Source: Cryobacterium luteum
GTDB taxonomy: Bacteria; Actinomycetota; Actinomycetes; Actinomycetales; Microbacteriaceae
DNA: 64,000 bases
NCBI RefSeq assembly: GCF_900110125.1
Contig: NZ_FOCN01000012.1
Location: forward strand, 1-64,000
Direction of reading: 5' to 3'
Below are positions 5,535-51,836 of this stretch, in pieces. The stretch's first letter is position 1. The number at the start of each line of letters is the position of its first letter. The position numbers were made by a program, and so were the translations under genes. The notes under the pieces are model-generated. The model was not told the origin of the DNA. It did not search any database and worked only from the letters and a program-made list of their open reading frames with translations.

Positions 5535-6368
5535 CTAGCGGGTGAGCGCTCCGATGATGCGCAGAATGCTCGGCAGATCGTCGGTCGCCGCCTCGGGTGA
5601 CGCCGGTGCGAACCCGGTGATGGTCGCGCCGGCCACAGTGAACTCGGCGCGCAGCGCGGTGATCGCGCCCCCGAGATCGGCCACGCTCAACCCGAACGGA
5701 ATCAGGTCGCTCAGGCCCTCGAGCGCCGAGGGGTCGAGCACGTCCAGGTCGATATGCACGAAGACATGCTTCGCGCCCGTCGCCGCGACCGCCGCGACGA
5801 GGGCGGCCGGGTCGGCCAGCTCTGAACACGACACGCTCACCAGGCCACGGTCGTGCAGCAGCACGTCTTCGGCGTCGTCGACGTCGCGAATCCCGGCCAG
5901 TACGACGTTCTCCAGCGGCACCGTGCTCGCGGCTTTCAGCTCGAGTTCGGCCGGTCCCTCACCGCTGATCGCGCGCAACACCATGCCGCAGAATCCGCCC
6001 GATGGCGAGGATTCGGGGGTGTGCAGGTCGGGATGGGCGTCGAACCAGACGACGGCCAGGTCGCCCGGATGCGTGCGCGCCGCCTGTTCAACGGCGGCCA
6101 GGGCGATGCCGCAGTCGCCGCCGATGGAGAGTGCCCAGTCGGCGGTGTCCCTGAGAACCTTGGCGTGGCGCTCGCGCACCACTTGGATCGCCGAGAACCG
6201 GTGCACCCCGGTATCGAGCGCATCACCGGCCTCGACGGGCACGTCGACCAGGCGGGTGGCAGAGAAGGGCAGGTCGCCCTGAATGGCCGCCGCCCCGTCG
6301 ACCAGGCGCATCGCGCGCGGAGAAATCGAACCCTGCCATTGCGGCACTACAACGAAGGTGGGAGCCAT
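5535..6368 (-). CDS. Arginase/agmatinase-family protein
   Basis: A 277-residue ureohydrolase-fold protein, probably hydrolysing a guanidino or amidino compound using two Mn2+ ions. The metal motifs are DAHPD (Asp110, His112, Asp114) and HIDLDVLDP (Asp207, Asp209). The first metal motif reads GGDC (Cys86) where arginases have GGDH, so one Mn ligand differs from the textbook enzyme. It is shorter than typical arginases (about 300 residues). Substrate specificity cannot be assigned: arginase, agmatinase, formiminoglutamase and guanidine-related hydrolases share these motifs. It lies downstream of pspA on the same strand but is separated from it by a hairpin. Confidence 0.82.
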   Translation of the reverse strand: MAPTFVVVPQWQGSISPRAMRLVDGAAAIQGDLPFSATRLVDVPVEAGDALDTGVHRFSAIQVVRERHAKVLRDTADWALSIGGDCGIALAAVEQAARTHPGDLAVVWFDAHPDLHTPESSPSGGFCGMVLRAISGEGPAELELKAASTVPLENVVLAGIRDVDDAEDVLLHDRGLVSVSCSELADPAALVAAVAATGAKHVFVHIDLDVLDPSALEGLSDLIPFGLSVADLGGAITALRAEFTVAGATITGFAPASPEAATDDLPSILRIIGALTR

Positions 6369-7415: not shown

Positions 7416-8180
7416 ATGAACGAAGAATTCACGAACCGGATGCTCGTCGTCGTCGAGGTCACCACGGCGCGTCCCGATCGCCCCGCCTATCACGCCAAGG
7501 TGCAGGTGCTCAACTCTCGAGTGGTCGCCGACGCCGAAACCGCCGGCTGGGCCGTCATCCGCATTGCCGCCGCCGACGTCACCCCCGCCGAACTGCTGCG
7601 CCGCACAGCGGATGCCGACGCCCTCGTCATCGTCGGCGGCGAAGACATCACGCCCCGCTTCTACGGCGGCAGCGCCGGCTACGAGGGCGAGACGGCGCAC
7701 TTCGCCACGGCCGACGAGGGCCAGATTGCTCTCGTGCAGCGCGCCCTCGCCCTCGGCACCCCGCTGCTGGGCATCTGCCGTGGCCTGCAGATCATCAACG
7801 TCGCCCTCGGCGGCACCCTCGTTCAGCACATTGACGACGGCATCCACAAGAACATCGACGTGCCGATCGACCAGATCCTCGTCGCTCACGGAGTCTCGCT
7901 CGCGGCCGACAGCACGCTCGCGTCAAGTCTGGGTCGGGTCGACATCTCGGTACAAAGCGCCCACCACCAGATCGTTGACCGTCTCGGTGCCAATCTCGTT
8001 GCCGCCGCCCACGCCCCCGACGGTCTGATCGAAGCCCTCGAACACGAGAGCGCGCCGATCACCGGAGTGCAGTGGCACCCCGAAGCGCCCGATTCCCCCG
8101 CCGACCAGCTCGCCCTGCTCCTGGCCGGCCTGGCCGCCCAGCACTCAGCCCGCGCCCTGGCCGGGTCCCTCGCCGCCTGA
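7416..8180 (+). CDS. Gamma-glutamyl hydrolase, peptidase C26 (PuuD-like)
   Basis: A 254-residue class I glutamine-amidotransferase-like hydrolase of the C26 group, which cleaves gamma-glutamyl amides such as gamma-glutamyl-GABA. The nucleophile is Cys121 in GICRGLQ, and the His-Glu pair is in QWHPEAPDS near residue 217. VIVGGEDITPRFYGG fits the PuuD-like group. It lies 652 bases upstream of a gamma-glutamyl-amine-ligase-type glutamine synthetase on the same strand. That pairing recalls the Puu putrescine route, where PuuA attaches glutamate and PuuD removes it. The natural substrate is unproven. Confidence 0.85.
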   Translation: MNEEFTNRMLVVVEVTTARPDRPAYHAKVQVLNSRVVADAETAGWAVIRIAAADVTPAELLRRTADADALVIVGGEDITPRFYGGSAGYEGETAHFATADEGQIALVQRALALGTPLLGICRGLQIINVALGGTLVQHIDDGIHKNIDVPIDQILVAHGVSLAADSTLASSLGRVDISVQSAHHQIVDRLGANLVAAAHAPDGLIEALEHESAPITGVQWHPEAPDSPADQLALLLAGLAAQHSARALAGSLAA

Positions 8181-8257
8181 CCGGCTGTACGGTACCGCGT
8201 CGGAGCGGGTCGCGCCGAAACAGGGATATCCGCTCCTCGCTCAAACATCGCGGGTGC

Positions 8258-8296
8258 GCAGGAAGACTCCGAGAAAAACGCTCGGAGCCTTCCTGC
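8258..8296. terminator. Strong hairpin downstream of the C26 hydrolase
   Basis: Outer arms 8258-8265 and 8289-8296 (8 bp) and inner arms 8267-8273 and 8281-8287 (7 bp) pair with a single A-C mismatch between them. The loop is A-rich. It probably ends the C26 transcript, although no T run follows. Confidence 0.5.
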
Positions 8297-8305
8297 TTAC
8301 CCACG

Positions 8306-8394
8306 AAACTCGCAACCCCGCGGACACCCCTGCCCCGTCGCTCGGATTCCAAGAGTCAAGTGGCGGTGCGGGTTATTCGCGGAGTTGCGAGTTT
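8306..8394. repeat. 89-bp element with 17-bp inverted ends
   Basis: Bases 8306-8322 and 8378-8394 are inverted repeats with one mismatch in 17. Size and arm length resemble the element at 5400-5492, although the arm sequences differ. Confidence 0.55.
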
Positions 8395-8495
8395 TGAGGT
8401 ACTTCGGGGCGTTGCGCATGCTTTTCGCGCAATGCTCCGGAATGCCTATCCCCAGCCGGCCGGCGGGCCATCGATACACGCCCGGGACCGAAAAA

Positions 8496-8541
8496 GCCCC
8501 AGCACTTCTCGCCTGGGGGGAGGTGAGAAATATGCCGGGGC
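8496..8541. ncRNA. Nested stem-loop structure, possible leader RNA
   Basis: An outer 5-bp stem (8496-8500 with 8537-8541) encloses a 9-bp stem (8506-8514 with 8521-8529, one G-T pair) closed by six G residues. I match it to no known riboswitch or small RNA class. Confidence 0.3.
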
Positions 8542-8733
8542 CAATCGTTGGAGTGGGGGAACTCCGTGTTCAACCGTACGGGGCACGGCCTGAGAAGAGG
8601 CTGACAAATTGTGATCATGGAGTCTACCCCCGGTGTTGGGCGCCGCTCTCCCGGCCGGTCGGTTTGTTATGCATCCGTTGTATCCGCGCGTCCGACCGGT
8701 TTCCCCGTTCGGGGCGCACCGACCGGCCGCTGT

Positions 8734-8760
8734 TTTACCTGTTCGTAACATCCCGGTCAC
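8734..8760 (+). promoter_or_regulatory. Candidate GlnR-like half-sites before the GlnT/GmaS gene
   Basis: TTACC (8734), GTAAC (8745) and GTCAC (8756) are spaced exactly 11 bases apart, the 5-plus-6 spacing of actinobacterial GlnR boxes. The match is partial. It fits nitrogen control of the operon that starts at 8833. Confidence 0.35.
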
Positions 8761-8832
8761 GCCCCGACCAATTCAGTTGATTACTCTGAAGCAACAAGAT
8801 TCACTGACAGTGAACATGAGGAGAGGTCGGGC

Positions 8833-10221
8833 ATGACAAATATTGCAGAGCTGGGGGAGGCGCGACGGGCCCAGGCCCTCGCAGCACCCGAATCGGCCAC
8901 ACTGAGCCCACCGACCCTGCGCGAACTCGCCGAAGCCGACGGCGTGCGCTTCATTCTCGCCGTCTTCGTTGACCTGAACGGCAAGCCGTGCGCCAAGCTC
9001 GTACCGACCGCGGCGGCCGACCAGCTCGAAGCCGGCGCCCTCGGCTTCGCCGGCTTCGCGGCCGGCCTGATCGGACAGCAACCGCAGGATCCCGACCTCA
9101 TCGCCATCCCCGACCTGACCTCGTATGTGCCCATCCCCTTCGTCAAGGAGGGCCTCGGTATCGTGCACTGTGACCCGCACGTGAACGGCGAACCGTGGCC
9201 GTACGCCCCGCGGGTCATTCTCAAAAACGCGATCAGTGACCTGGCCCGTCGCAACTTGCAGGCCAAGGTCGGCGCCGAGGTCGAATACTTTCTCGTGCAC
9301 CGGGACGACGCCGGCGCCATCAGCACCGCCGACCGCCGCGACGACGGTGCGCGCACCTGCTACGACGCCCGCGGCGTGACGCGCATGTACGACCACCTCA
9401 CCGCGGTGAGCGACGCCATGAACAGCCTCGGCTGGGGCAACTACGCCAACGACCACGAGGATGCCGCCGGCCAGTTCGAGCAGAACTTCGCCTACGACGA
9501 CGCCCTCATCACCGCCGACCGGGTGGTCACCCTGCGCTACCTGATCAGCGTGCTCGCCGAACAGCGCGGCATGACCGCGACCTTCATGCCCAAACCCTTC
9601 GCCAATCGCGCCGGCAGCGGCCTGCACTTTCACCTTTCACTCTGGGCCGACGACGCCCCGGTATTTCCCGACGATCGCGACCGAAGGGGCCTTGGCCTGT
9701 CACCGACCGCCTACGCCTTCATCGGCGGCATCCTGGCCCACGCCTCCGGGCTGCAGGCGTTCCTGGCGCCGTCGGTCAACTCCTACAAGCGCCGCGGCGC
9801 TTCCACGAGCGCTTCGGGGGCGACCTGGTCGCCGAAAAAGGCCACCTACGGCGGAAACGATCGCACCCACTTCATTCGGGTGCCCGACGAGAAGCGCATC
9901 GAGTTGCGCGCCGGCGACGGCTCGGCCAACCCGTACCTCGCGATCGCCGCCACGATCTCGGCCGGCCTGGACGGGCTCGACCAGGCGATCGACCCGGGCG
10001 ACCCGTGCGGTCCGGGCGAGTCGCGCGCGACCTCCGCCGTGCTGCCCCAGACCCTGCTGCACGCCGTCGAAGCGCTGCGTCGTGACCGGGTGCTGCTCGA
10101 CTCGTTCGGCATCGAGCATCCGGTCGGGGAGTATTTCGCTCAGGCGAAGGAAGACGAATTTTTGACCTGGCACAACACGGTCACCGATTGGGAGATCAAC
10201 TCCTACCTCACCGCTTACTAA
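8833..10221 (+). CDS. Type III glutamine synthetase-like ligase (GlnT/GmaS type)
   Basis: A 462-residue ATP-dependent ligase of the glutamine synthetase fold. It joins the gamma-carboxyl of glutamate to ammonia (GlnT) or to methylamine (GmaS, forming gamma-glutamylmethylamide). Visible catalytic-domain motifs are KVGAEVEYFL, the NDHEDAAGQFEQNF segment typical of the GlnT/GmaS group, FMPKPFANRAGSGLHFHLSL and ELRAGDGSANPYLAIAA. AGGAG precedes the ATG. It heads an operon with three glutamate-synthase-like subunits, an Amt transporter and a sarcosine oxidase-like enzyme. That company favours an amine-glutamylating role over housekeeping ammonia assimilation, but sequence alone does not separate GlnT from GmaS. 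Confidence 0.88.
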   Translation: MTNIAELGEARRAQALAAPESATLSPPTLRELAEADGVRFILAVFVDLNGKPCAKLVPTAAADQLEAGALGFAGFAAGLIGQQPQDPDLIAIPDLTSYVPIPFVKEGLGIVHCDPHVNGEPWPYAPRVILKNAISDLARRNLQAKVGAEVEYFLVHRDDAGAISTADRRDDGARTCYDARGVTRMYDHLTAVSDAMNSLGWGNYANDHEDAAGQFEQNFAYDDALITADRVVTLRYLISVLAEQRGMTATFMPKPFANRAGSGLHFHLSLWADDAPVFPDDRDRRGLGLSPTAYAFIGGILAHASGLQAFLAPSVNSYKRRGASTSASGATWSPKKATYGGNDRTHFIRVPDEKRIELRAGDGSANPYLAIAATISAGLDGLDQAIDPGDPCGPGESRATSAVLPQTLLHAVEALRRDRVLLDSFGIEHPVGEYFAQAKEDEFLTWHNTVTDWEINSYLTAY

Positions 10222-10236
10222 CAGACAGGATTCCCT

Positions 10237-11172
10237 ATGTGTGGCATTGCAGCACTTCAAATTCGCGACGTCGGCCTGCGCGCCAGCCTCGGTGAGCTCA
10301 TGCACGGCATGCTCTGCGGCATCGTCGACCGCGGCCCCGACTCGGCCGGTCTCGCCATCTACAACGACCCGACCCTCACCCCGGCCGGCACGAGCACCGT
10401 CACCGTGCTCAACGCCGAATTGACCCCCGACGCGCTTGCCGCGGCCCTCCGCGACGCGTTGCCGCCCGCGGTCGGGGTCACCGTCACCGTCACCGGATTC
10501 GGTGAGACCACCCTCATCAACGCCCAGATCGGCACCGGCGCCCTCGAAGACGCCATCACGAGCATCCTTCCCGGCGTGCAGATCGCCGGCCGCGGCGAGC
10601 ACGCGGCGGTGCGCAAGGGCACCGGGCATCCGCTCGACCTGGCCGAGCTGTACGACCTGCGCTCGGCGACCGGCAGCCAGGGACTTTCCCACACCCGCAT
10701 GGCCACCGAGTCGGCCGTGACCGCCGCCGGCTCGCATCCGTTCACCGTCGCCGACGATCTCTGCCTCGTGCACAACGGGTCGTTCAGCAACCACGCCACG
10801 ATCCGCCGGCAGCTGCGCGCCGAGGGCGTCACCTGTGACAGCGAAAACGACTCGGAGGTCGCCGCCCGCTTCATCGCCTGGTGCCTGGCAGCCGGGGACA
10901 CCCTCACCACGGCCCTCGAAAAGCTCGGCAGCGTCTTCGACGGGTTCTACACCCTCGTCGTGACGACCGCCACGAGCATGGCGATCGTGCGCGACCCCAT
11001 CGCGTGCAAGCCGGCCATCATCGCCGAAACGGATGCCTGGGTCGCGATGGCGAGTGAATACCGCGCCCTCGCGCACCTGCCCGGTATTGAATCCGCGCGC
11101 ATCTTCGAACCCGCTCCCGGCGTCGTCTACACCTGGACCCTCGACTCGACCAAAGAACTGGTGACGCTGTGA
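10237..11172 (+). CDS. glxB: Class II glutamine amidotransferase-like subunit (GlxB/MgsA type)
   Basis: A 311-residue N-terminal-nucleophile amidotransferase domain protein. After Met removal, Cys2 (MCGIAALQIRD) is the catalytic residue, and DRGPDSAG at about residues 31-38 is the family signature. It matches the stand-alone first domain of glutamate synthase found as GlxB, or as MgsA of N-methylglutamate synthase, which would release the amino or methylamino group from a gamma-glutamyl amide. AGGA lies ahead of the ATG, 15 bases after the ligase stop. The next subunit overlaps its stop (GTGA). Confidence 0.87.
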   Translation: MCGIAALQIRDVGLRASLGELMHGMLCGIVDRGPDSAGLAIYNDPTLTPAGTSTVTVLNAELTPDALAAALRDALPPAVGVTVTVTGFGETTLINAQIGTGALEDAITSILPGVQIAGRGEHAAVRKGTGHPLDLAELYDLRSATGSQGLSHTRMATESAVTAAGSHPFTVADDLCLVHNGSFSNHATIRRQLRAEGVTCDSENDSEVAARFIAWCLAAGDTLTTALEKLGSVFDGFYTLVVTTATSMAIVRDPIACKPAIIAETDAWVAMASEYRALAHLPGIESARIFEPAPGVVYTWTLDSTKELVTL

Positions 11173-11870
11173 CCCTCACCCAAGCCCCCGTGCACATCGA
11201 GACTGTCGACCTCGCCGTGAGCACCGTGCGCGAACTCAACCAGGCGCTGCACGCCACCGACGACGGCACGAGCTGGGTTGTCGACACCCCGGCCGGGCAG
11301 CACAACATCGCCGTCGGCATCGACCGCGACCTCGACCTCGTCGTCAACGGACACGTGGGCTACTACTTCGCCGGCATGCACCAGAAGGGCCGCGTCACCG
11401 TGCACGGCAGCGCCGGCGTCGGACTGGCCGAGAACATCATGTCGGGCACGGTGCACGTCACCGGTGACGCCTCCCAGGCAGCCGCGGCAACCGGGCAGGG
11501 CGGTCTCGTCATCATCGACGGCAACACCGGCGCTCGCTGCGGCATCTCCATGAAGGGCGTGGACATCGTCGTGGGCGGCGACATCGGCCACGCCTCGGCG
11601 TTCATGGCCCAGGCCGGCCGGCTCGTGGTCTGCGGCGACGCCGGAGAGGGCCTCGGCGACTCCATCTACGAAGCCCGCATCTACGTGAAGGGCACGGTCG
11701 CCTCCCTCGGCGCCGACTGCGTCGAAAAGCCGCTGCGACCCGAACACCTCGCCGAGCTGGCCGAGCTGCTCACCCTGGCCGGTCGAACGGATGCCCCGAC
11801 CGACTTTCGCCGCTACGGCTCCGCCCGCACGCTGTACCACTTCGCCGCCGTCAACGCCGCCGCCTACTAA
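11169..11870 (+). CDS. glxC: Glutamate synthase GXGXG-domain subunit (GlxC/MgsB type)
   Basis: A 233-residue right-handed beta-helix protein that matches the C-terminal GXGXG domain of glutamate synthase (FwdC/GltB C-terminal family). Repeated Gly-rich turns such as VNGHVGYYFAGMHQKG, HGSAGVGLAENIMSG and CGDAGEGLGDSIYEA are visible along its length. In the full enzyme this domain is structural and helps channel the released ammonia or amine. The GTG start at 11169 overlaps the previous stop. It is the middle subunit of the split enzyme coded here in the order amidotransferase, beta-helix, FMN domain. Confidence 0.86.
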   Translation: MTLTQAPVHIETVDLAVSTVRELNQALHATDDGTSWVVDTPAGQHNIAVGIDRDLDLVVNGHVGYYFAGMHQKGRVTVHGSAGVGLAENIMSGTVHVTGDASQAAAATGQGGLVIIDGNTGARCGISMKGVDIVVGGDIGHASAFMAQAGRLVVCGDAGEGLGDSIYEARIYVKGTVASLGADCVEKPLRPEHLAELAELLTLAGRTDAPTDFRRYGSARTLYHFAAVNAAAY

Positions 11871-11915
11871 GCGTCGCCGACCCACCCATACGCTCACGAA
11901 CCCAAGGGACACACC

Positions 11916-13235
11916 ATGACGAACAGCTATGCCAGCCGGGGCCTGCGCGAATCGGCCACCTTCGACCGTGCCACCATCAACGACATCCAGCGGGCCGCCA
12001 CGACCGGCATCTACGACATTCGCGGCTGGGGCGCCAAGCGGGCCCTGCCGCACTTCGACGACCTGCTCTTCCTCGGCGCGAGCGTGTCCCGGTATCCGCT
12101 CGAGGGCTACCGCGAGAAGTGCGGCACCGACGTCACCCTCGGCGGCCGCCACGCGCTCAAGCCGATCACCCTCGACATTCCGATCACCATCGCCGGCATG
12201 AGCTTCGGCGCCCTCTCGGCCAACGCCAAGGAGGCCCTCGGCCGTGGCGCCACGGAGGCCGGCACCTCCACCACCACCGGCGACGGCGGCATGACCCCCG
12301 AGGAACGCGGGCAGTCCCGCCACCTCGTCTACCAGTACCTGCCATCCCGCTACGGCATGAACCCCGACGACCTGCGCAAAGCGGATGCGATCGAGATCGT
12401 GCTCGGACAGGGCGCCAAGCCCGGCGGCGGCGGCATGCTGCTCGGCCAGAAGATCACCGAACGCGTCGCCGGCATGCGCACCCTCCCGGTGGGCATCGAC
12501 CAGCGGTCGGCCTGCCGGCACCCGGACTGGACCGGCCCGGACGACCTCGCGATCAAGATCGCCGAACTGCGCGAGATCACCGACTGGCACACACCGATCT
12601 ACGTCAAGGTCGGCGCCTCCCGCCCCTATTACGACACCGCGCTCGCCGTGAAGAGCGGCGCCGACGTGGTCGTGCTCGACGGTATGCAGGGCGGAACCGC
12701 CGCCACCCAGCAGGTGTTCATCGAGAACGTCGGCATCCCGATCCTCGCCGCGATCGGCCCGGCGGTCGCCGCGCTGCAGGAACTCGGCGTGCACCGCCAG
12801 GTGCAGCTCATCGTCTCCGGCGGCATCCGCAACGGCGCCGACGTGGCCAAAGCCATCGCCCTTGGCGCCGACGCGGTCTCGATCGGCACCGCCGCGCTCA
12901 TCGCCCTCGGCGACAACGACCCGCGCTACCAGGCCGAATACGAAGCGCTCGGCTCCTCCGCCGGGTTCTACGACGACTTCCAGGATGGCAAGGACCCCGC
13001 TGGCATCAGCACCCAGGACCCGATTCTCGCCGCACGGCTCGACCCGATCGCCGGCGGCAAGCGCATCGCCAACTACCTTCGGGTGCTGACCCTCGAAGCG
13101 CAGACCATCGCGCGGGCCTGCGGCAAGTCCCACCTGCACCACCTCGAACCCGAAGACCTGGTCGCCCTCACGGTGGAAGCCGCCGCGATGGCCGGGGTGC
13201 CCCTCGCCGGCACCAGCTGGATTCCCGGCCGCTGA
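11916..13235 (+). CDS. glxD: FMN-binding glutamate synthase domain subunit (GlxD/MgsC type)
   Basis: A 439-residue TIM-barrel protein equal to the central FMN domain of glutamate synthase. Recognisable parts are ITIAGMSFGALSANAKEALG, STTTGDGGMTPEERGQSR, GQGAKPGGGGML, VVLDGMQGGTAATQ and SGGIRNGADVAKAIALGADAVSIGTAAL. In GlxD/MgsC enzymes this part transfers the amino or methylamino group to 2-oxoglutarate. AGGGACAC precedes the ATG. It completes the three-part synthase, with the ammonium transporter gene directly after it. Confidence 0.88.
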   Translation: MTNSYASRGLRESATFDRATINDIQRAATTGIYDIRGWGAKRALPHFDDLLFLGASVSRYPLEGYREKCGTDVTLGGRHALKPITLDIPITIAGMSFGALSANAKEALGRGATEAGTSTTTGDGGMTPEERGQSRHLVYQYLPSRYGMNPDDLRKADAIEIVLGQGAKPGGGGMLLGQKITERVAGMRTLPVGIDQRSACRHPDWTGPDDLAIKIAELREITDWHTPIYVKVGASRPYYDTALAVKSGADVVVLDGMQGGTAATQQVFIENVGIPILAAIGPAVAALQELGVHRQVQLIVSGGIRNGADVAKAIALGADAVSIGTAALIALGDNDPRYQAEYEALGSSAGFYDDFQDGKDPAGISTQDPILAARLDPIAGGKRIANYLRVLTLEAQTIARACGKSHLHHLEPEDLVALTVEAAAMAGVPLAGTSWIPGR

Positions 13236-13275
13236 ACCTCCGTTCTCTTCACCGATCGACGACAAGGACACGCTC

Positions 13276-14592
13276 ATGGATACTGGCAATACCGCCTGGC
13301 TGCTGACCAGCTCGGCACTCGTGGCACTGATGATTCCCGGCCTCGCCCTGTTCTACGGCGGCATGGTCAGCTCGAAACGCATTCTGAACATGATGATGAT
13401 GTGCTTCGGCGGCGCCAGCCTCGTCGCCATTCTCTGGGTCATTTTCGGCTACTCGGCCACCTTCGGCGACTCGCTCGGCGACCTCGGACTCCTCGGCGAC
13501 CCGCTCCAATTCTTCGGCCTCGAAACGATCCTCGCCGACGATCCCGACGCGGCCCTGCCGCTCGCACTGTTCATCGTGTTCCAGCTGTTGTTCGCCGGAG
13601 TGACCACCGCCCTCGTGGCCGGGGCCGCGGCCGGCCGCATGAAATTCGGCGCCTGGCTGCTGTTTGCCGGCATCTGGGCCGCGCTGGTCTACTTTCCGGT
13701 GGCGCACTGGGTGTTCGCCTTCGACGGCGATAACGTCGTCGGCGGCTGGATCGCCAACGATCTGGGTGCCATCGACTTCGCCGGTGGCACCGCGGTGCAC
13801 ATGAACGCCGGCGTGGCCGCCCTCGCCCTGGCCATCGTGCTCGGCCGCAGCAAGGGCTGGGGCGGGCCGCTCAAGCCGCACAACCGGCCGCTCGTTCTTG
13901 TCGGCGCCGGCCTGCTCTGGGTGGGCTGGTACGGTTTCAACGCCGGCTCGGCCCTGAGCGCCGGCAACGCCGCGAGCGTCGTCTTTCTCAACACCACCGT
14001 CGCCGCGTGCGCCGGCCTGCTCGGCTGGGCCCTGGTCGACCGGCTCCGGCACGGCTCGGTCACGAGCCTCGGCGCTGCCTCCGGCCTGGTCTCCGCCCTC
14101 GTGGCGATCACCCCGGCCTGCGGTGCGGTCAGCCCGATGGGCGCTATCGCCATCGGCGCCATCGCCGGCATCATCTGCTGCCTCGCCGTGGAGTGGAAGT
14201 TCACACTCGGCTACGACGACTCCCTCGACGTGGTCGGCGTGCACATGGTCGGTGGCCTGGTCGGTACCCTGTTGATCGGGTTCTTCGCAACGGATGCCGC
14301 CCCCAACGGCCAAAGGGGCCTGTTCTACGGTGGCGGCGCACTGCTGCTCGGCATCCAGGCACTCGCCGCCGGCGCCGTGCTGCTGTACTCCTTTGTCGTC
14401 ACCTGGGTCATCGCCAAGGTGCTCGATCTGACCATCGGACTGCGCATCCCCGAACAGGACGAGGTCGACGGCATCGACCGCCACGCGCACGCCGAAGACG
14501 CCTACGACGACGAACCCAGTGACGACCAACCCAGTGACGACCAACCCAGTGACGACCAACCCAGTGACGCCGACCTGGTGTCGGCGCCGTAA
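13276..14592 (+). CDS. amt: Ammonium/methylammonium transporter (Amt family)
   Basis: A 438-residue Amt/Mep/Rh channel with about 11 membrane segments that brings ammonium, and usually methylammonium, into the cell. Family segments are FYGGMVSSKRILNMMMM, DFAGGTAVHMNAGVAALALA with the conserved pore His, WYGFNAGSAL and DVVGVHMVGGLVGTLLIG. The position right after the GlxBCD-type genes supports uptake of the amine handled by the cluster. The cytoplasmic tail is odd: after the last helix come many Asp residues and almost four copies of a five-residue unit PSDDQ, coded by perfect 15-base tandem repeats. No glnK follows. Confidence 0.9.
   Translation: MDTGNTAWLLTSSALVALMIPGLALFYGGMVSSKRILNMMMMCFGGASLVAILWVIFGYSATFGDSLGDLGLLGDPLQFFGLETILADDPDAALPLALFIVFQLLFAGVTTALVAGAAAGRMKFGAWLLFAGIWAALVYFPVAHWVFAFDGDNVVGGWIANDLGAIDFAGGTAVHMNAGVAALALAIVLGRSKGWGGPLKPHNRPLVLVGAGLLWVGWYGFNAGSALSAGNAASVVFLNTTVAACAGLLGWALVDRLRHGSVTSLGAASGLVSALVAITPACGAVSPMGAIAIGAIAGIICCLAVEWKFTLGYDDSLDVVGVHMVGGLVGTLLIGFFATDAAPNGQRGLFYGGGALLLGIQALAAGAVLLYSFVVTWVIAKVLDLTIGLRIPEQDEVDGIDRHAHAEDAYDDEPSDDQPSDDQPSDDQPSDADLVSAP
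14515..14569 (+). repeat. 15-bp tandem repeat, 3.7 copies, in the amt tail
   Basis: Three perfect copies (14515-14529, 14530-14544, 14545-14559) and a 10-base partial copy. The unit keeps frame, so gain or loss of a copy would add or remove PSDDQ without a frameshift. Confidence 0.9.
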
Positions 14593-14632
14593 GCATCCGT
14601 TTCACCCATCAATAACCGAGCAGGAGAACACA

Positions 14633-15769
14633 GTGGGTCACGCAGTGAGCAGTGCACAGTACGTCGTCATCGGGGCCGGCCTGGCCGGAGCCGCCACCGC
14701 CTGGCAGCTCGCCACCCGTGGCCACGAGGTCACCATTCTGGAACGGTCCACCCCCGCCAACGACGCCGGAAGCTCACACGGGTCGGCGCGCATCTTTCGC
14801 TATGCCTACCCCGATGCGTTCTACACCGGCCTCGTGCAGCAGGCCAAAGTCGGCTGGGACGAACTGACCCGGCTGGGCGGGCGGGAGCTGATCACTCCCA
14901 CCGGTTCGGTCGACTACGGAACGCTGCGCGAACCCGAAGCGCTCGCCCGGGTGCTGCAGACCGCCGGCATCGAGCACGAACTGCTCACAGCGGATGCCGC
15001 CCGCGAGCGCTGGCCGCAGATCACCTTCGATACCCCGGTGCTCTGGCACCCGGGTGCCGGAGTCATCGACGCCGAGACGGCCGTGACGACCATGGTCGAG
15101 CTGGCCCTCGCGGCGGGCGCTCGGCTATACACCGACTGGCCGGTCGCCCGGGTGACTGAAACGGCCACCGGGTACCGGGTGCACAACGATACCGGGGAGG
15201 CCGTCGATGCCGAGAACGTGATCGTCAGCGCCGGCGGTTGGCTGCCGAGCCTGCTCGGTGAGCTGCCGCTGCCGAGCGCCTTCCGCGCGCAGATCCCCGA
15301 GATCACCGTGATGCAGGAGCAGGCCTATCACTTTCCCTACGCTGACCCCGATACCGCCGGGCACTGGCCGACCTTCATTCACAAGATGGACGGCATGCAG
15401 GTGTACGGGCTGCCCGGCGGCCGCGACGCCGCCTTTCGCGGCCAGAAAATCGCCGAATACAACGGTGGCAAACGGCTCGCCTCGGCGGCCGACCAGGACG
15501 GCATCATGGGAGCGGCCAACCGGGAACGGGTCGTCGACTATGTGGCCCGCTACCTGCCGGGCCTCGACCCCACGCCGTACGCTGAGACCACCTGCCTGTT
15601 CACCAACACGCCGACGGAGGACTTCATCATCGACCGCGTCGATAACATCACCCTGCTCTCGCCGTGCTCCGGCCACGGTGCCAAATTCGCGCCGGTGATC
15701 GGCCAGCTCGCGGCCGACCTGGCCACCGGCGTCGGGTCGGTGCCGCCCCAGTTCCAAGCCCGTCCGTGA
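14633..15769 (+). CDS. Monomeric sarcosine oxidase-like FAD amine oxidase
   Basis: A 378-residue flavoenzyme of the monomeric sarcosine oxidase/N-methyltryptophan oxidase family (MSOX, SolA). It oxidises N-methyl amino acids to the free amino acid, formaldehyde and H2O2. The FAD-binding motif VIGAGLAGAATAWQLATRG is at about residues 10-28, SHGSARIFRYAY follows, and Cys321 in TTCLFTNTPTEDFIID aligns with the cysteine that carries covalent FAD in MSOX. The GTG at 14633 is chosen because AGGAGA lies just upstream; in-frame starts further upstream lie in the amt tail. Placed after a GmaS/MgsABC-like set, it could take the role of N-methylglutamate dehydrogenase. Other N-alkyl amino acids remain possible. 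Confidence 0.85.
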   Translation: MGHAVSSAQYVVIGAGLAGAATAWQLATRGHEVTILERSTPANDAGSSHGSARIFRYAYPDAFYTGLVQQAKVGWDELTRLGGRELITPTGSVDYGTLREPEALARVLQTAGIEHELLTADAARERWPQITFDTPVLWHPGAGVIDAETAVTTMVELALAAGARLYTDWPVARVTETATGYRVHNDTGEAVDAENVIVSAGGWLPSLLGELPLPSAFRAQIPEITVMQEQAYHFPYADPDTAGHWPTFIHKMDGMQVYGLPGGRDAAFRGQKIAEYNGGKRLASAADQDGIMGAANRERVVDYVARYLPGLDPTPYAETTCLFTNTPTEDFIIDRVDNITLLSPCSGHGAKFAPVIGQLAADLATGVGSVPPQFQARP

Positions 15770-17037
15770 CGGTTTCCGGGCCGACGCACCCGTCGGCGAG
15801 CACTCCGGCACCCGCCGACACGGTCGCCGGGCTTCTGGCCGAGATCAGCCGGGTCGGCGCCGATACGCACCGCGGCGGCTACTCCCGGCCGGTTTTCTCC
15901 ACCGCCGAACTCGACCTGCGCGCCTGGTTCCTCGCCCACGCAGCCAAACGCGGACTCGACGTGGAGACGGACCGAAACGGGGTCATCTGGGCCTGGTGGC
16001 ACACCCCGGTGGGCGGCACCGCCAACGCCGTCGTCACCGGCAGCCACCTCGACTCTGTCCCCGGCGGCGGCGCCTTCGACGGCCCGCTCGGGGTCGCCTC
16101 CGCGCTCGTCGCCCTGGATTTTCTGCAGGCCGAGGGCCTTCGCCCCGAACGCCCGCTCGCCATCGCGGTGTTCCCCGAGGAAGAAGGGTCACGATTCGGC
16201 GTGGCCTGCCTCGGTACCCGCGTGCTCACGGGCGCGATCGACGTCAACCTGGCCCGCGGCCTGCGCGACCAGAACGGTGACACCTTCGCCGAGGTGGCCG
16301 CCAGAAGCGGCTTCGACCCGACACTTCTCGGACCTGACCCCGAGGCGCTCGCCCGGATCGGCACCTTCATCGAACTGCACGTCGAGCAGGGTCGCGAGCT
16401 GATCGACCGCCACCAGGCGGTCGGCATCGGTTCGTCGATTCTCGGCCACGGTCGTTGGCGGCTGAGCGTCACCGGTCAGGGCAACCATGCCGGCACGACG
16501 CTCATGACCGACCGGCACGACCCGATGATCGCGGCGGCCGGCATCGTCATGGCCATCCGCGACACCGCCCGCGCCCAGCCGGGGGCTCGGGCCACCGTCG
16601 GCCGGCTCGAACCGGTGCCCGGAGGCACGAATGTGATCGCCTCCCGGGTCGACCTGTGGCTCGACGCACGGCACCCCGACGACGCGGTGACGGCATCCGT
16701 TGTGGCCACCATTCTGGCCGAGGCCCGCCTGATCGCGGCTGCTGAGGGCTGCACGGTGCAGCTCACCGAGGAGTCGGTCAGCCGCACGGTCAGCTTCGAC
16801 ACGGGCCTGCGCGATCACCTGAGCCTGCTGCTGCCGGATGCGCCGGTGCAGCACACCGGCGCCGGTCACGACGCGGGAATCCTCACCCAATATGTGCCGA
16901 CCGCGATGCTGTTCGTGCGGAACCCCACCGGGGTGTCGCACTCGCCCGAGGAATATGTCGAGGACGACGACGCCGAGGCCGGCGCTCTTGCCCTCGCCCG
17001 CGTGCTGGCCGACCTGTTGGTGCCCACCACCCCCTGA
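15766..17037 (+). CDS. M20-family amidohydrolase (N-carbamoyl-amino-acid/allantoate amidohydrolase type)
   Basis: A 423-residue Zn/Mn-dependent hydrolase of the HyuC/AllC group. These enzymes cleave N-carbamoyl amino acids, allantoate or ureido compounds and release ammonia. The metal-site motifs are GSHLDSVPGGGAFDGPLGV, FPEEEGSRFG and FIELHVEQG; the dimer or substrate motif GNHAGTT and the late HDAGILTQ and SHSPEEYV segments are also present. The GTG start overlaps the stop of the amine oxidase (GTGA), so the two are translationally coupled. The substrate is uncertain. In context it probably frees nitrogen from a product of the amine cluster. It ends the operon before a very strong hairpin. 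Confidence 0.85.
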   Translation: MTVSGPTHPSASTPAPADTVAGLLAEISRVGADTHRGGYSRPVFSTAELDLRAWFLAHAAKRGLDVETDRNGVIWAWWHTPVGGTANAVVTGSHLDSVPGGGAFDGPLGVASALVALDFLQAEGLRPERPLAIAVFPEEEGSRFGVACLGTRVLTGAIDVNLARGLRDQNGDTFAEVAARSGFDPTLLGPDPEALARIGTFIELHVEQGRELIDRHQAVGIGSSILGHGRWRLSVTGQGNHAGTTLMTDRHDPMIAAAGIVMAIRDTARAQPGARATVGRLEPVPGGTNVIASRVDLWLDARHPDDAVTASVVATILAEARLIAAAEGCTVQLTEESVSRTVSFDTGLRDHLSLLLPDAPVQHTGAGHDAGILTQYVPTAMLFVRNPTGVSHSPEEYVEDDDAEAGALALARVLADLLVPTTP

Positions 17038-48091: not shown

Positions 48092-50215
48092 TTGCCCGGC
48101 ACCCGAACCCACTGCCCGTACTGCGCCCTGCAGTGCGCGATGATGCTGAACCCCTCTCCAACGGATGCCGACGCGGTGACGGTGGCCGGCCGGGACTTTC
48201 CGACCAACCGGGGCGGCCTGTGCAAGAAAGGCTGGACCGCCGCCGAATTGCTCGTCTCCCCGGACCGCGTCCTGGAACCGCTGTTGCGGCAGCCCGACGG
48301 TTCTTTCGAACCGGCGTCCTGGAGCGATGCACTCGACCTCGTCGCCGCGAAACTGCGCGGCACCCGGGCCGAGCACGGGGCCGACGCGGTCGGCGTGTTC
48401 GGCGGTGGGGGACTGACCAACGAGAAGGCCTACCAGCTCGGCAAGTTCACCAGGGTGGCGCTCGGTTCGAGCCGCATCGACTACAACGGCCGGTTCTGCA
48501 TGTCGAGCGCCGCGGCCGCCGGCAACCGGGCGTTCGGCCTCGATCGCGGGCTCCCGTTTCGCGTCCACGATCTCGATACGGCCGACACCATCCTCATTCT
48601 CGGCTCCAACGTGGCGCAGACCATGCCGCCGTTCATCGGCCACCTCGAGGGGGCCCGCGCTGCCGGCGGCCTCGTCGTCGTCGACCCGCGCCGCACCGCG
48701 ACCGCCCGGCTCACCGATAACGGCGCCGGCATGCACGTGCAGCCGACTCCCGGCAGCGACCTCGTGCTGCTGCTCGGCCTGACCCACCTCGTCATCGCCA
48801 AGAAACTCACCGACCAGCACTACCTCCACGCCCGCACCACCGGGTTCGACGCGGTACGCCGCAGCGTGAACCAGTGGTGGCCAACCCGCGTGCAGGAACA
48901 CACCGGCGTTCCGGTCTGGCAGCTGCGCGAACTCGCCCGCCGCCTGGCGGCAGGGGCTGCCCGCGGACAAGCGACCGGCAACGGTACCTACATTCTCACC
49001 GGGCGCGGCGTCGAGCAGCACGTCGACGGCACCGACACGGCCACCGCGGCGATCAACCTCAGCCTCGTGCTCGGCCTCGTCGGCACGACGCACTCCGGCT
49101 ACGGCACCCTCACCGGCCAGGGCAACGGGCAGGGCGGCCGCGAACACGGGCAGAAGTGCGACCAGCTGCCCGGCTACCGCAAGATCAGCGATCCCGCTGC
49201 CCGCGCGCACGTCGCCGGGGTCTGGAGCGTCGACCCGGACAGCCTGCCCGGCGTCGGCCTGCCCGCGGTCGAGCTGCTCGGCGCGCTCGGCGAGCCGGGC
49301 GGCATCCGCTGCCTGCTCGTGCACGGTTCCAATGTCGTCGTCTCCGCGCCGAACGCGAACCGGGTGCGAGCCGCCCTGAAAACCCTGGATTTTCTGGTCG
49401 TGGCCGACTTTTTCTTCTCCGAAACCGCGGTGCTCGCCGACGTGGTGCTGCCGGTTACGCAGTGGGCCGAGGAGGAAGGCACGATGACGTCGCTCGAGGG
49501 TCGCGTCATCCGGCGCCGGCTGGCGGTCGCTGCACCCGAGGGTGTGCGCAGCGAACTGTGGATCTGGCAGGAACTCGCCCGCCGCCTCGACTCGGCGTCG
49601 ACCTTCAGCGCCGAAGCCGGTGAGGTGTTCGATGAACTCTGTCGAGCGTCGGCGGGTGGCCTGGCCGACTATTCCGGGCTCAGCTATGAGCTGCTCGACT
49701 CCGAAGAGCCGGCCTTCTGGCCGTATCCCGCAGGGTCCACCGGAACGCCCCGCCTATTTCTTGACCGCTTTGCCCACCCCGACGGCCGCGCCCACCTCGT
49801 CGCCGTCCAGGCCCGTCGCCTCGGTGCACCGGCGCAGGTCGACGGCACCCTCACGCTGATCACCGGCCGCCTGCTCGAGCACTACCAAAGCGGCACCCAG
49901 ACCCGGCGGGTGCGCGAGCTCGCCGACGCCCAGCCGGAGGCCCGACTGCAGCTGCACCCGGCTACCGCTGAGCAGCTCGGCATCATCGACGAGGCCTGGG
50001 TCGAGGTCAGCAACGACCGGGGAACGGTGCGCTGCCGGGCCCAGGTGAGCACCGACATCCGCTTTGACACGGTCTTTCTGCCGTTTCACTTTGCCGGCGA
50101 TCAGCGTGCCAACCTGCTGACGGACGACGAGACCGATCCCGTGAGCGGTATGCCCGAATTCAAGAAGACGACCGTTCGAGTGCGTGCGCTCGTGGAAGCA
50201 GGCGCCCATGTCTGA
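48092..50215 (+). CDS. nasC: Assimilatory nitrate reductase, molybdopterin catalytic subunit
   Basis: A 707-residue molybdopterin oxidoreductase that reduces nitrate to nitrite in the cytoplasm. The N-terminal [4Fe-4S] cluster is held by CPYCALQC and the Cys of GGLCKKGW. Mo-cofactor parts include YNGRFCMSSAAAAGNRAFG, GSNVAQTMPP, VVDPRRTATARLTD and GTLTGQGNGQGGREHGQKCD. The start appears to be TTG, seven bases after narK, since no better codon precedes the iron-sulfur motif. It overlaps the next gene by eight bases. No nirBD-type nitrite reductase is in this window. Confidence 0.9.
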   Translation: MPGTRTHCPYCALQCAMMLNPSPTDADAVTVAGRDFPTNRGGLCKKGWTAAELLVSPDRVLEPLLRQPDGSFEPASWSDALDLVAAKLRGTRAEHGADAVGVFGGGGLTNEKAYQLGKFTRVALGSSRIDYNGRFCMSSAAAAGNRAFGLDRGLPFRVHDLDTADTILILGSNVAQTMPPFIGHLEGARAAGGLVVVDPRRTATARLTDNGAGMHVQPTPGSDLVLLLGLTHLVIAKKLTDQHYLHARTTGFDAVRRSVNQWWPTRVQEHTGVPVWQLRELARRLAAGAARGQATGNGTYILTGRGVEQHVDGTDTATAAINLSLVLGLVGTTHSGYGTLTGQGNGQGGREHGQKCDQLPGYRKISDPAARAHVAGVWSVDPDSLPGVGLPAVELLGALGEPGGIRCLLVHGSNVVVSAPNANRVRAALKTLDFLVVADFFFSETAVLADVVLPVTQWAEEEGTMTSLEGRVIRRRLAVAAPEGVRSELWIWQELARRLDSASTFSAEAGEVFDELCRASAGGLADYSGLSYELLDSEEPAFWPYPAGSTGTPRLFLDRFAHPDGRAHLVAVQARRLGAPAQVDGTLTLITGRLLEHYQSGTQTRRVRELADAQPEARLQLHPATAEQLGIIDEAWVEVSNDRGTVRCRAQVSTDIRFDTVFLPFHFAGDQRANLLTDDETDPVSGMPEFKKTTVRVRALVEAGAHV

Positions 50216-51836
50216 ACACCGGAACCCTGAGCACATCGTGCTGGTCGGCTACGGCCCGGTCGGTGCCCGTTTCGTCGACGAGCTGCTGCCGCTTGTGCGG
50301 CAGGGCGCGGCGACGCTGACCGTAGTCGGGGCCGAGAGCGCGGACGCCTACAACCGGGTGCTCATCGCCGAATATGCCGTCGGCAACGCCGACCGGGAGA
50401 GCCTGGATATCACCGACCCGCTCGCCGCCCGGGAGGCCGGCGTGCACCTGCGCCTGGGCCTGAGCGTCACGGCCATCCTCCGCAGTCGCCGTGCGGTGTC
50501 GCTCAGCGATGGCACGCTGTTGCGCTACGACCGGCTCGTGCTCGCCACCGGCGCCCGTGCCAACGTGCCCACCCTCGACGGCGTCACCCGTGTGCGCCGC
50601 GATCGCCAGGCGCCGCCAGCGGATGCCGCCACCCTCGACACCAGCGGCGCCCCACTCCCGCGCGGGGTCACCGTGCTGCGTGACCTCGACGATGCGAGGC
50701 GGGTGCTCGCGGCCGTGACTGCCGGAGCCCGCATCGTCGTGCTCGGCGCGGGCGTGCTCGGTATGGAGATTGCCCTCGCTGCGGCGACCGCCGGTGCCCA
50801 GGCCTGCGTGGTTTATCACGGCGAGATTCCCATGGCACGCAACCTCGACCGCGGCGGCGGCAGCGTGCTCGCGCAGAGCGCCCGCCGGGCCGGCGTGACC
50901 ATGGTCAACCACTCTCGCGCCGAGAGCCTGCTCTTTCACCAGGACGACGACGGAGTGGACCGGTTCGACGCCCTGATCTGTGCTGACGGCAAGCAGATCC
51001 ACGGCGACCTGCTGCTGCTCTCCTGCGGTGTCGGCGCCCGTACCGAGCTGGCCCAGTTGGCGGCCCTGCCGGTGTCGACCGGAATCCTGGTCGACGAAAA
51101 CCTGCAGAGTTGGGGCGACCCGCAGGTCTACGCGATCGGCGACTGCGCGCACGTGGCTCCTGCGCCTCGCGCCGGCGATTCCACGGCGCGTCCGACCGGC
51201 GGGCCGAGCGGCCTGATCGGTCCGGGCTGGCGCCAGGCCGACTGGCTGGCCGCGCGGTTCACGGCCGAGCTGTTGAACCGGGAGGCGGCGCTGTCGCTGG
51301 CGGCGGCGACGCCTGCCGTGGTCATGCTCAAGGCCGAGGGCGTCGATGTCGTGTCGGTCGGCAACACGGCCGCTGACCCGTGGGATGCCGGTCTTGACGA
51401 ACATGCCGCCGGGTGCTCCGGCGCCCCGGTGCGCGTCGCACAGTGGGCCGACCCCGAAGCCGGTCGTTACGTGAAGATGGTCACCCGCCACGGCATTCTC
51501 GAGGGCTTCGTCTGCGTCGGTATGCCGCGCACGGCCGCCGAGCTGACCCTGCTGTTCGAGCGCGGCAGCGAACTGCCGGCCGATCGCTCTGTGTTGCTGC
51601 GCTACGACGGACCGGACTATGAGCCATCCGCCGGCAGCGCGTTCGCGCTCGATGCAACCATCTGCTGGTGCAACGGCGTCACCGTCGGCGCCATCACCGA
51701 GGCGGCTGAGGCCGGCAACGCCACCGTCGCCTGCATCGGCGCGGCCACCCGAGCCGGCACCGGCTGTGGCGGCTGCACAACGCGCATCGGCGACGTTCTC
51801 GAGCATTTCCGGGCAGCGGAATCCACCCCGGGATAG
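50208..51836 (+). CDS. nasB: FAD-dependent oxidoreductase with BFD-like [2Fe-2S] domain (nitrate reductase partner)
   Basis: A 542-residue NAD(P)H/FAD oxidoreductase that probably delivers electrons to the nitrate reductase encoded just before it. The N-terminal FAD-binding motif is IVLVGYGPVGARFVDELL, a second Rossmann motif IVVLGAGVLGMEIALAAATAG binds NAD(P)H, and VYAIGDCAH closes the FAD site. Near residues 480-525 a bacterioferritin-associated-ferredoxin-like [2Fe-2S] site reads CWCNGVTVGAI then GCGGCTTRI. It resembles the N-terminal part of NirB/NasB, without a sirohaem domain, so it is not a complete nitrite reductase. Confidence 0.87.
   Translation: MSEHRNPEHIVLVGYGPVGARFVDELLPLVRQGAATLTVVGAESADAYNRVLIAEYAVGNADRESLDITDPLAAREAGVHLRLGLSVTAILRSRRAVSLSDGTLLRYDRLVLATGARANVPTLDGVTRVRRDRQAPPADAATLDTSGAPLPRGVTVLRDLDDARRVLAAVTAGARIVVLGAGVLGMEIALAAATAGAQACVVYHGEIPMARNLDRGGGSVLAQSARRAGVTMVNHSRAESLLFHQDDDGVDRFDALICADGKQIHGDLLLLSCGVGARTELAQLAALPVSTGILVDENLQSWGDPQVYAIGDCAHVAPAPRAGDSTARPTGGPSGLIGPGWRQADWLAARFTAELLNREAALSLAAATPAVVMLKAEGVDVVSVGNTAADPWDAGLDEHAAGCSGAPVRVAQWADPEAGRYVKMVTRHGILEGFVCVGMPRTAAELTLLFERGSELPADRSVLLRYDGPDYEPSAGSAFALDATICWCNGVTVGAITEAAEAGNATVACIGAATRAGTGCGGCTTRIGDVLEHFRAAESTPG

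Follow-up and report, generated by a model that had tools for sequence, protein, structure and literature searches.

Many bacteria draw nitrogen from methylated amines. A run of genes in Cryobacterium luteum raises the question of which enzyme oxidises N-methylglutamate, the last step of one route of methylamine use, where the four-subunit enzyme MgdABCD is not found. We analysed the first 64,000 nucleotides of contig NZ_FOCN01000012.1 (assembly GCF_900110125.1; hereafter the window), which belong to a 3.83 Mb genome of 73 contigs that is 99.93% complete. The + strand carries, between positions 8833 and 17037, genes for a ligase, GlxB, GlxC, GlxD, an Amt transporter, a flavin adenine dinucleotide (FAD) oxidase and an M20 hydrolase, in this order; all are open, as is a C26 hydrolase gene upstream. 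We consider it probable that these genes form an operon for methylamine use by an N-methylglutamate-type route in which the last enzyme has been replaced. The genes, as listed here, their kinship, their conserved order, the lack of a SoxD match and the linkage to methylated-amine genes are what comparison of the sequences itself displays.

8833-10221, + strand: GmaS-type gamma-glutamylmethylamide synthetase (the ligase); TIGR03105, 570.5 bits against a cut-off of 469.6
10237-11172, + strand: GlxB (MgsA), class II glutamine-amidotransferase subunit with N-terminal MCGI; Pfam GATase_6/7
11169-11870, + strand: GlxC (MgsB), GXGXG subunit; PF01493
11916-13235, + strand: GlxD (MgsC), flavin mononucleotide (FMN) glutamate-synthase-type subunit; PF01645 (Glu_synthase)
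13276-14592, + strand: Amt (methyl)ammonium transporter; Pfam Amt, and TIGR00836 amt with 425.4 bits against a cut-off of 343.3
14633-15769, + strand: single-chain FAD oxidase with the fold of monomeric sarcosine oxidase (MSOX) and N-methyltryptophan oxidase (MTOX), proposed N-methylglutamate oxidase; Pfam DAO
15766-17037, + strand: M20 amidohydrolase of hydantoinase/carbamoylase type, judged accessory; NF006770, 598.8 bits against a cut-off of 372
7416-8180, + strand: C26 hydrolase, a neighbour judged not to be part of the unit; Pfam C26

Family scans agree with the eight genes and places given by an earlier, sequence-only reading of the window. That reading had also described several overlapping stops and starts. 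Overlaps of 4 bases do occur at the GlxB/GlxC and oxidase/M20 junctions (the oxidase probably starts at GTG 14633 and stops at 15769, the M20 hydrolase probably starts at GTG 15766 and stops at 17037), but the remaining junctions within the ligase-to-M20 run are gaps of 15-45 bases, and 652 bases separate the C26 gene from the ligase.

One of two single-chain oxidases beside the synthase

MgdABCD contains a SoxD-type subunit. A search with the model of this subunit (PF04267) gave no match in the source genome, where the other three Mgd subunits were not sought genome-wide; 14 control genomes were also without a match. The same model matched 25 of the 50 genomes with a cluster that were searched, both proteobacterial ones included, so the model works. 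As the SoxD subunit was not found, the source genome shows no sign of MgdABCD.

We then compared the best 80 named GlxD loci of a larger set, 68 actinobacterial and 12 proteobacterial, in which GlxD is 82-93% identical to that of the window (best named match, Cryobacterium frigoriphilum, 93%) and contig ends shorten the flanks in several cases. Window-type oxidases were called at an identity of at least 40%. A second, free-standing soxB-like oxidase, here FADb, was called at at least 45%. The order ligase-GlxB-GlxC-GlxD-oxidase recurs in 25 of the 80 loci, with an oxidase identity of 42-78%, and the linkage is therefore not a matter of chance. The oxidase starts within ~100 bases of GlxD in 21 of these 25 loci and after ~600-710 bases in the other four (L027-L030).

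The two oxidases divide the actinobacterial loci between them: 25 of the 68 have the window-type oxidase, 37 have FADb, none has both and six have neither, and Sox subunits lie in the flanks of none. Five of the six loci with neither (L031, L032, L036, L038 and L068) belong to genomes that hold a window-type oxidase (55-68% identity) elsewhere. For the sixth, L064, no window-type oxidase was found genome-wide at E 1e-30, and FADb was not sought genome-wide there. Proteobacterial loci present the reverse arrangement, with Sox subunits plus FolD/PurU in the flanks of 10 of 12 (not in L090 and L105) and a window-type oxidase or FADb in none of the 12. Congruently with the sequence-only reading, which had MgdABCD absent and a single-chain oxidase in its place, the source genome is without a SoxD match, and the oxidase-GlxBCD linkage is conserved in 25 of 68 actinobacterial loci.

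The best curated score of FADb is to TIGR01373 soxB, at 124.1 of 529.45 bits and thus far under the cut-off, and the fold predicted for it (pLDDT 86.5) most resembles that of the heterotetrameric sarcosine oxidase beta subunit. FADb gave no match in the source genome at E 1e-60. In a sample of 396 genomes of the phylum it occurs at an identity of at least 50% in five, each time directly beside GlxD. Among the 13 GlxD loci fetched from this sample, five have FADb, five have Sox subunits (L206, L208, L209, L212 and L213) and three (L207, L210 and L211) have no clear last enzyme in their flanks; a SoxB match of 27% is all that L210 offers. Oxidase matches of 25-29% that follow GlxD in Gordonia and Mycolicibacterium had been considered as the MgdA of an MgdABCD enzyme; they are FADb, with no Sox partners in the flanks.

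The SoxD search covered 50 of the 80 loci (48 actinobacterial genomes and 2 proteobacterial). SoxD is absent from 25 of the 48 actinobacterial genomes and present in both proteobacterial ones; by type of locus, it is absent from 9 of 25 genomes with a linked oxidase, 13 of 18 with FADb and 3 of 5 with neither linked. The picture that these comparisons suggest is that MgdABCD may have been replaced in actinomycetes by one of two single-chain FAD oxidases. We lean towards the view that it was replaced twice, by an MSOX-type enzyme and by the free-standing soxB-like enzyme, giving an O2-dependent route that would produce H2O2 and free formaldehyde and be tied to mycothiol rather than folate.

Methylamine as the probable substrate

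The best solved relatives of the window ligase are 7cql and 9qur, both methylamine ligases: 7cql is the GmaS of PMC7948447 (seen in excerpt), and 9qur was deposited under the title glutamate-methylamine ligase. Since 7cql itself is named a type III glutamate-ammonia ligase, TIGR03105 does not separate GmaS from GlnT. The excerpt of PMC7948447 defines the amine pocket of GmaS and names the residues found in GmaS where glutamine synthetase (GS) has its ammonia-binding ones. Eight of nine GmaS marker residues are kept in the window ligase, the exception being Gln175, which is Ala; GS Asp50' is replaced by Ala and the flap Glu by Trp, the same as in GmaS.

We read the nine marker positions in 92 ligase rows (L056 and L093 had no usable row and L100 only a partial one; each of the pairs L103/L117 and L021/L083 enters a single record or genome twice). 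KAYADEENW is the reading in all 72 window-type actinobacterial clusters whose ligase is fully readable, that of the window among them. The string KAYQDEENW is found in 7cql, 9qur and 15 proteobacterial loci, and KTYSDEEDW in two distant Microbacteriaceae ligases; one cut row was not fully readable. In the phylum sample, 10 of 12 ligases have Ala at the Gln175 place and two have Gln (L212 and L213). A 44-row tree, rooted on three GS-like paralogues of the source genome that sit on long branches, groups the window-type actinobacterial ligases in a single clade (100/100), which lies between the branch of 9qur and Pseudomonas and that of 7cql and Paracoccus aminophilus, whose ligase (L115) is 38% identical to that of the window. 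The ligase thus falls inside the GmaS radiation, as the sequence-only reading had supposed, and does not group as a true GlnT; it very likely uses methylamine. A further ligase type, ~40% identical and with an Amt gene near, occurs in the same family (L013-L017 and L022-L024) and perhaps handles another amine; both rows that were read (L013 and L016) have the pocket KTYSDEEDW.

The annotation names of the two enzymes, type III glutamate-ammonia ligase and glutamate synthase, would fit an ordinary GlnT/glutamate-synthase island for ammonia assimilation with an unrelated oxidase next door. We find this barely credible, given that the ammonia-binding residues of GS are absent, that 62 of 68 loci have the window-type oxidase or FADb in their flanks and that the clusters are linked to dimethylamine genes.

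GlxBCD is, on its sequence relationships, an MgsABC-type N-methylglutamate synthase. GlxB, GlxC and GlxD are 47, 57 and 78% identical to MgsA, MgsB and MgsC of P. aminophilus pAMI6 (L115), with the same gene order, which agrees with the three-part split noted in the sequence-only reading, and the N-terminus MCGI or VCGI is found on GlxB in 86 of the 88 relatives read. The mgsABC-gmaS and mgdABCD operons of pAMI6 are described in PMC4543880 (excerpt). Pseudomonas C5pp has an operon, gmas-mgsABC-amt, of the same order as ligase-MgsABC-Amt in the window, and its activity and its expression on methylamine have been reported (PMC8292978, excerpt). The synthase is carried by plasmids too, since relatives of GlxD are found in 243 plasmid records (92 at 80-90% and 151 at 60-80% identity), most often from Rhizobium, Sinorhizobium and Acinetobacter.

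The surroundings of the clusters point to methylated amines as well. Matches to dimethylamine monooxygenase genes (HODM, reductase and DmmA) lie in the flanks of 11 of the 68 actinobacterial loci (L038, L044, L046, L049, L051, L055, L062, L064, L079, L087 and L089), nine of them with FADb and two with neither oxidase linked; the search covered 102 loci and found any match in 20, two query loci included. DmmABC converts dimethylamine to methylamine (PMC5520151, excerpt). An XRE-cupin (helix-turn-helix-cupin) regulator lies in the flanks of 62 of the 68 loci. It is not in the window, and the source genome has an orthologue (80%) on contig 20, at 7819-8397 and unlinked to the window, which adjoins two divergent dmm sets, a EutQ-like cupin and an Amt gene (L131, ~4.2-15.5 kb). 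The two dmm sets score 217.8 and 186.4 bits for PF11927, and 110 and 98.6 bits for NF041259 against a cut-off of 60. EutQ-like genes beside methylated-amine genes have been described in actinobacteria (PMC5023230, excerpt). In two Streptomyces loci, L116 and L070, the oxidase is followed by an S-(hydroxymethyl)mycothiol dehydrogenase (665.5 of 512.9 bits for TIGR03451 in L116; the L070 copy is 82-87% identical to it), and the source genome encodes such an enzyme on contig 63 (661 bits). With the dmm linkage, the proximity of regulator and dmm genes and the Streptomyces dehydrogenase, methylamine as the substrate is better supported than the sequence-only reading could know.

These same observations bear on whether the ligase and GlxBCD handle another primary amine, such as ethylamine, ethanolamine or a polyamine, with an oxidase that cleaves the matching N-alkylglutamate. 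The Ala that stands for Gln175 of the amine pocket in 72 actinobacterial rows could widen that pocket, and GmaS accepts other amines in vitro (PMC7948447, excerpt). The change is nevertheless no mark of another substrate, because it also occurs where Sox subunits lie beside the cluster (L206, L208 and L209), and it need not concern the amine at all, because Gln175 also contacts an ATP phosphate in RhGmaS. The lineages with Sox subunits thus weaken it as a sign of a different amine. Together with the dmm genes beside 11 of 68 clusters, the regulator-dmm linkage in the source genome and the hydroxymethyl-mycothiol dehydrogenase gene that follows the oxidase gene in two Streptomyces loci, this makes a different amine very improbable.

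For a methylamine operon the following route is proposed. Amt would import methylammonium, and the GmaS-type ligase would join methylamine to glutamate in an ATP-dependent reaction. MgsABC (GlxBCD) would then transfer the methylamine from gamma-glutamylmethylamide on its FMN glutamate-synthase core, forming N-methylglutamate, which the single-chain oxidase would convert with O2 to glutamate, formaldehyde and H2O2. Clearance of the formaldehyde would fall to the mycothiol-dependent dehydrogenase encoded elsewhere in the genome, and the two dmm sets of contig 20 may feed the pathway from dimethylamine. All these reactions, above all the substrate of the oxidase, we infer.

The oxidase within and outside the cluster

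Solved relatives of the window oxidase are 7exs, 2uzz, 1zov and 1el5. Its predicted model (pLDDT 92.4) has its best fold match in 7exs (Foldseek E 1e-34) and a TM of 0.84-0.89 to MSOX and MTOX entries, at a sequence identity of 24-33%. It scores under the curated cut-offs, with 189.9 of 479.65 bits for TIGR01377 and 250.4 of 257 bits for MTOX NF008425. MSOX Arg49, Arg52, Lys265, Cys315, His345 and Lys348 correspond to Arg53, Arg56, Lys272, Cys321, His348 and Lys351 of the window oxidase; the numbering of Cys321 given in the sequence-only reading is correct with the start at GTG 14633. We take the Cys to hold FAD covalently and the Arg and Lys residues to bind the carboxylate. The model thus suggests an MSOX fold with the covalent-FAD Cys and the Arg/Lys set, and the enzyme is probably covalently flavinylated. 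It shares with MSOX and MTOX the fold, this Cys, two Arg and the equivalents of Lys265 and Lys348, and differs from them in its low identity, in the change of His269 and Tyr317 to Tyr and Phe (Phe323 for Tyr317) and in its location in a gmaS-mgsABC operon. It is the only MSOX-type oxidase of the source genome, where the next match has 26% identity over half the length (E 2e-6).

In a sample of 249 genomes of the family, the oxidase (at least 50% identity) is present in 20 and a close ligase in five, with both in the same five; it thus occurs in 5 of 5 genomes with the ligase and in 15 of 244 others (Fisher 2e-6, uncorrected for kinship).

Several observations weigh against an N-methylglutamate oxidase that stands in for MgdABCD, and we set them out together. 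At the active site, Tyr276 of the window oxidase stands where MSOX has His269, the closest relatives having Tyr or Phe there, and the oxidase alignment revealed no residue suited to binding the N-methylglutamate side-chain carboxylate. A conserved Arg264 had been considered as the gamma-carboxylate binder and was rejected as a general marker, because 8 of 28 linked rows lack it. On an oxidase tree of 56 rows (L070, whose oxidase match falls in two pieces, was omitted from tree and alignment) the label of linkage to GlxBCD needs eight changes, at least four of them forced by well-supported branches, which implies that the linkage was gained or lost several times. The 15 other family genomes with the oxidase lack a close ligase (G050, G175 and G224 carry one of ~40%), and in seven of them the oxidase adjoins an M20 gene, with Amt near in six of the seven. 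These oxidases share nearly all active-site letters with the linked ones, three having Gln for His345. The oxidase may therefore act on several N-methyl amino acids, sarcosine for example, and it is because of its presence in genomes without a close ligase that its action on N-methylglutamate can only be inferred. Of three genomes with the oxidase (at least 57% identity) in the phylum sample, only the source genome has GlxD (G142 and G164 gave no match), and four genomes of the same genus gave no ligase match.

The context argues in the same direction at some points. No dmm genes lie in the flanks of the 25 oxidase-linked loci, and the link to the mycothiol dehydrogenase in Streptomyces may be a single event, the L070 oxidase match being in two pieces. 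Away from the cluster, SoxD is encoded in 16 of the 25 oxidase-linked genomes and in 5 of the 18 with FADb. Related genomes that carry MgdABCD alongside had been named in the sequence-only reading as evidence to the contrary; the oxidase-linked genomes are divided on this, 16 having SoxD elsewhere and nine having none. In addition, a survey gave the last step in Mycobacterium to unlinked MgdA-D (PMC5023230, excerpt). The Gma-MgsABC cluster that it reports for Mycobacterium sp. 141 and 155 is likewise an actinobacterial gmaS-mgsABC cluster. In contrast to that assignment, the mycobacterial loci that we examined, from strains other than 141 and 155, have FADb along with the cluster. Among six mycobacterial cluster genomes tested for SoxD, L048, L054, L060, L066 and L067 have none and L075 has it.

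Much of this would also fit two separate modules, one in which the ligase and MgsABC make N-methylglutamate and another in which Amt, oxidase and M20 hydrolase serve sarcosine or N-carbamoyl-N-methyl amino acids, the M20 enzyme removing the carbamoyl group and the oxidase demethylating, with a shared operon for co-regulation. Runs of Amt-oxidase-M20 are found without a close ligase in L177, L179 and L180 (~7.5-11.4 kb), and oxidase-M20 pairs in L176, L178, L185 and L188; Pseudoclavibacter (L133 and L134) has oxidase-M20 apart from ligase-GlxBCD. The window Amt is 79-80% identical to that of the three longer runs, and the window operon accordingly gives the impression that ligase-MgsABC was added to a pre-existing Amt-oxidase-M20 module. 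The same-genus genome G078 (L137, contig 14) has lost the ligase-to-oxidase block and kept the M20 gene: window positions 8681-15490 are replaced by ~73 bases, a clean loss that leaves the last ~86 oxidase residues upstream of an open M20 gene. However, two modules would leave the genomes without SoxD with no known enzyme to oxidise N-methylglutamate. FADb, a different oxidase, occupies this position too and stands nowhere but beside GlxD in the phylum sample (5/5), and L045, L047, L063, L065 and L096 are among the loci where the window-type oxidase comes after GlxD with neither M20 nor Amt in the flanks. We therefore regard separate modules as rather unlikely. Action on N-methylglutamate, to give glutamate, formaldehyde and H2O2, appears from these comparisons to be the best explanation of the oxidase.

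An M20 gene lies in the flanks of 22 of the 68 actinobacterial loci. As it was kept in G078 after the loss of the block, it seems to have a use of its own, and we would guess that it acts on carbamoyl or formyl groups. The C26 hydrolase and the nearby ggt, which the sequence-only reading had recycling gamma-glutamyl compounds, were rejected as members of the pathway: each is in the flanks of 0 of 68 loci, and both are kept, like the M20 gene, at 90-92% in the cluster-less G078 (C26 at 92%). Elsewhere in the source genome (L026; contig 23, ~8.0-9.8 kb) a second GS-like ligase lies beside a C26 hydrolase that is 33% identical to that of the window; the two may form a separate gamma-glutamylation pathway. 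The window also encodes an arginase-family protein (5535-6368, - strand), far under the arginase, agmatinase and HutG cut-offs and 96% identical in G078. Two molybdopterin oxidoreductase genes of different Pfam families lie at 48092-51836 and 54719-56287, one of them with a Pyr_redox_2 gene after it and a major facilitator superfamily gene before it.

Relation to known pathways

The proteobacterial N-methylglutamate pathway of P. aminophilus pAMI6 and Pseudomonas C5pp shares with these clusters the GmaS-type ligase, MgsABC and a helix-turn-helix-cupin regulator nearby. The window differs in having no MgdABCD, FolD or PurU alongside and a single-chain FAD oxidase instead, and its formaldehyde is presumably free and cleared through mycothiol. 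The gamma-glutamylputrescine (Puu) pathway resembles the window in its GS-like ligase and DAO-family oxidase, with a C26 gene near the window and the helix-turn-helix-cupin regulator in relatives, but C26 is not a conserved neighbour of window-type clusters, and we know of no counterpart of GlxBCD in the Puu pathway. A Puu-type gamma-glutamylation pathway was rejected on the scores for PuuA (217.4 of 650 bits) and PuuD (63 of 266 bits), PuuR also being far under its cut-off.

A search of the open-access PMC literature (subscription journals and preprints were outside its scope) found no description of a single-chain oxidase in the N-methylglutamate pathway, and no paper among the matches listed contains 'N-methylglutamate oxidase' or 'N-methyl-L-glutamate oxidase'. 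Since the cluster would work like the N-methylglutamate pathway and lacks one of its defining features, MgdABCD, we regard it as a variant, widespread and apparently undescribed.

The gene gmaS serves as a marker for methylamine-using organisms (PMC7948447, excerpt). If our reading is true, surveys based on mgdABCD would miss the last enzyme in Arthrobacter, Microbacterium, Streptomyces, Mycolicibacterium, Gordonia, Rhodococcus and others, and the names glutamine synthetase III and glutamate synthase are, we suggest, wrong for the genes of these clusters. Two orphan groups of FAD oxidases would gain a testable substrate. The carbon would also meet a different fate in these organisms, as free formaldehyde passed to mycothiol, after a last step that would consume oxygen and make peroxide.

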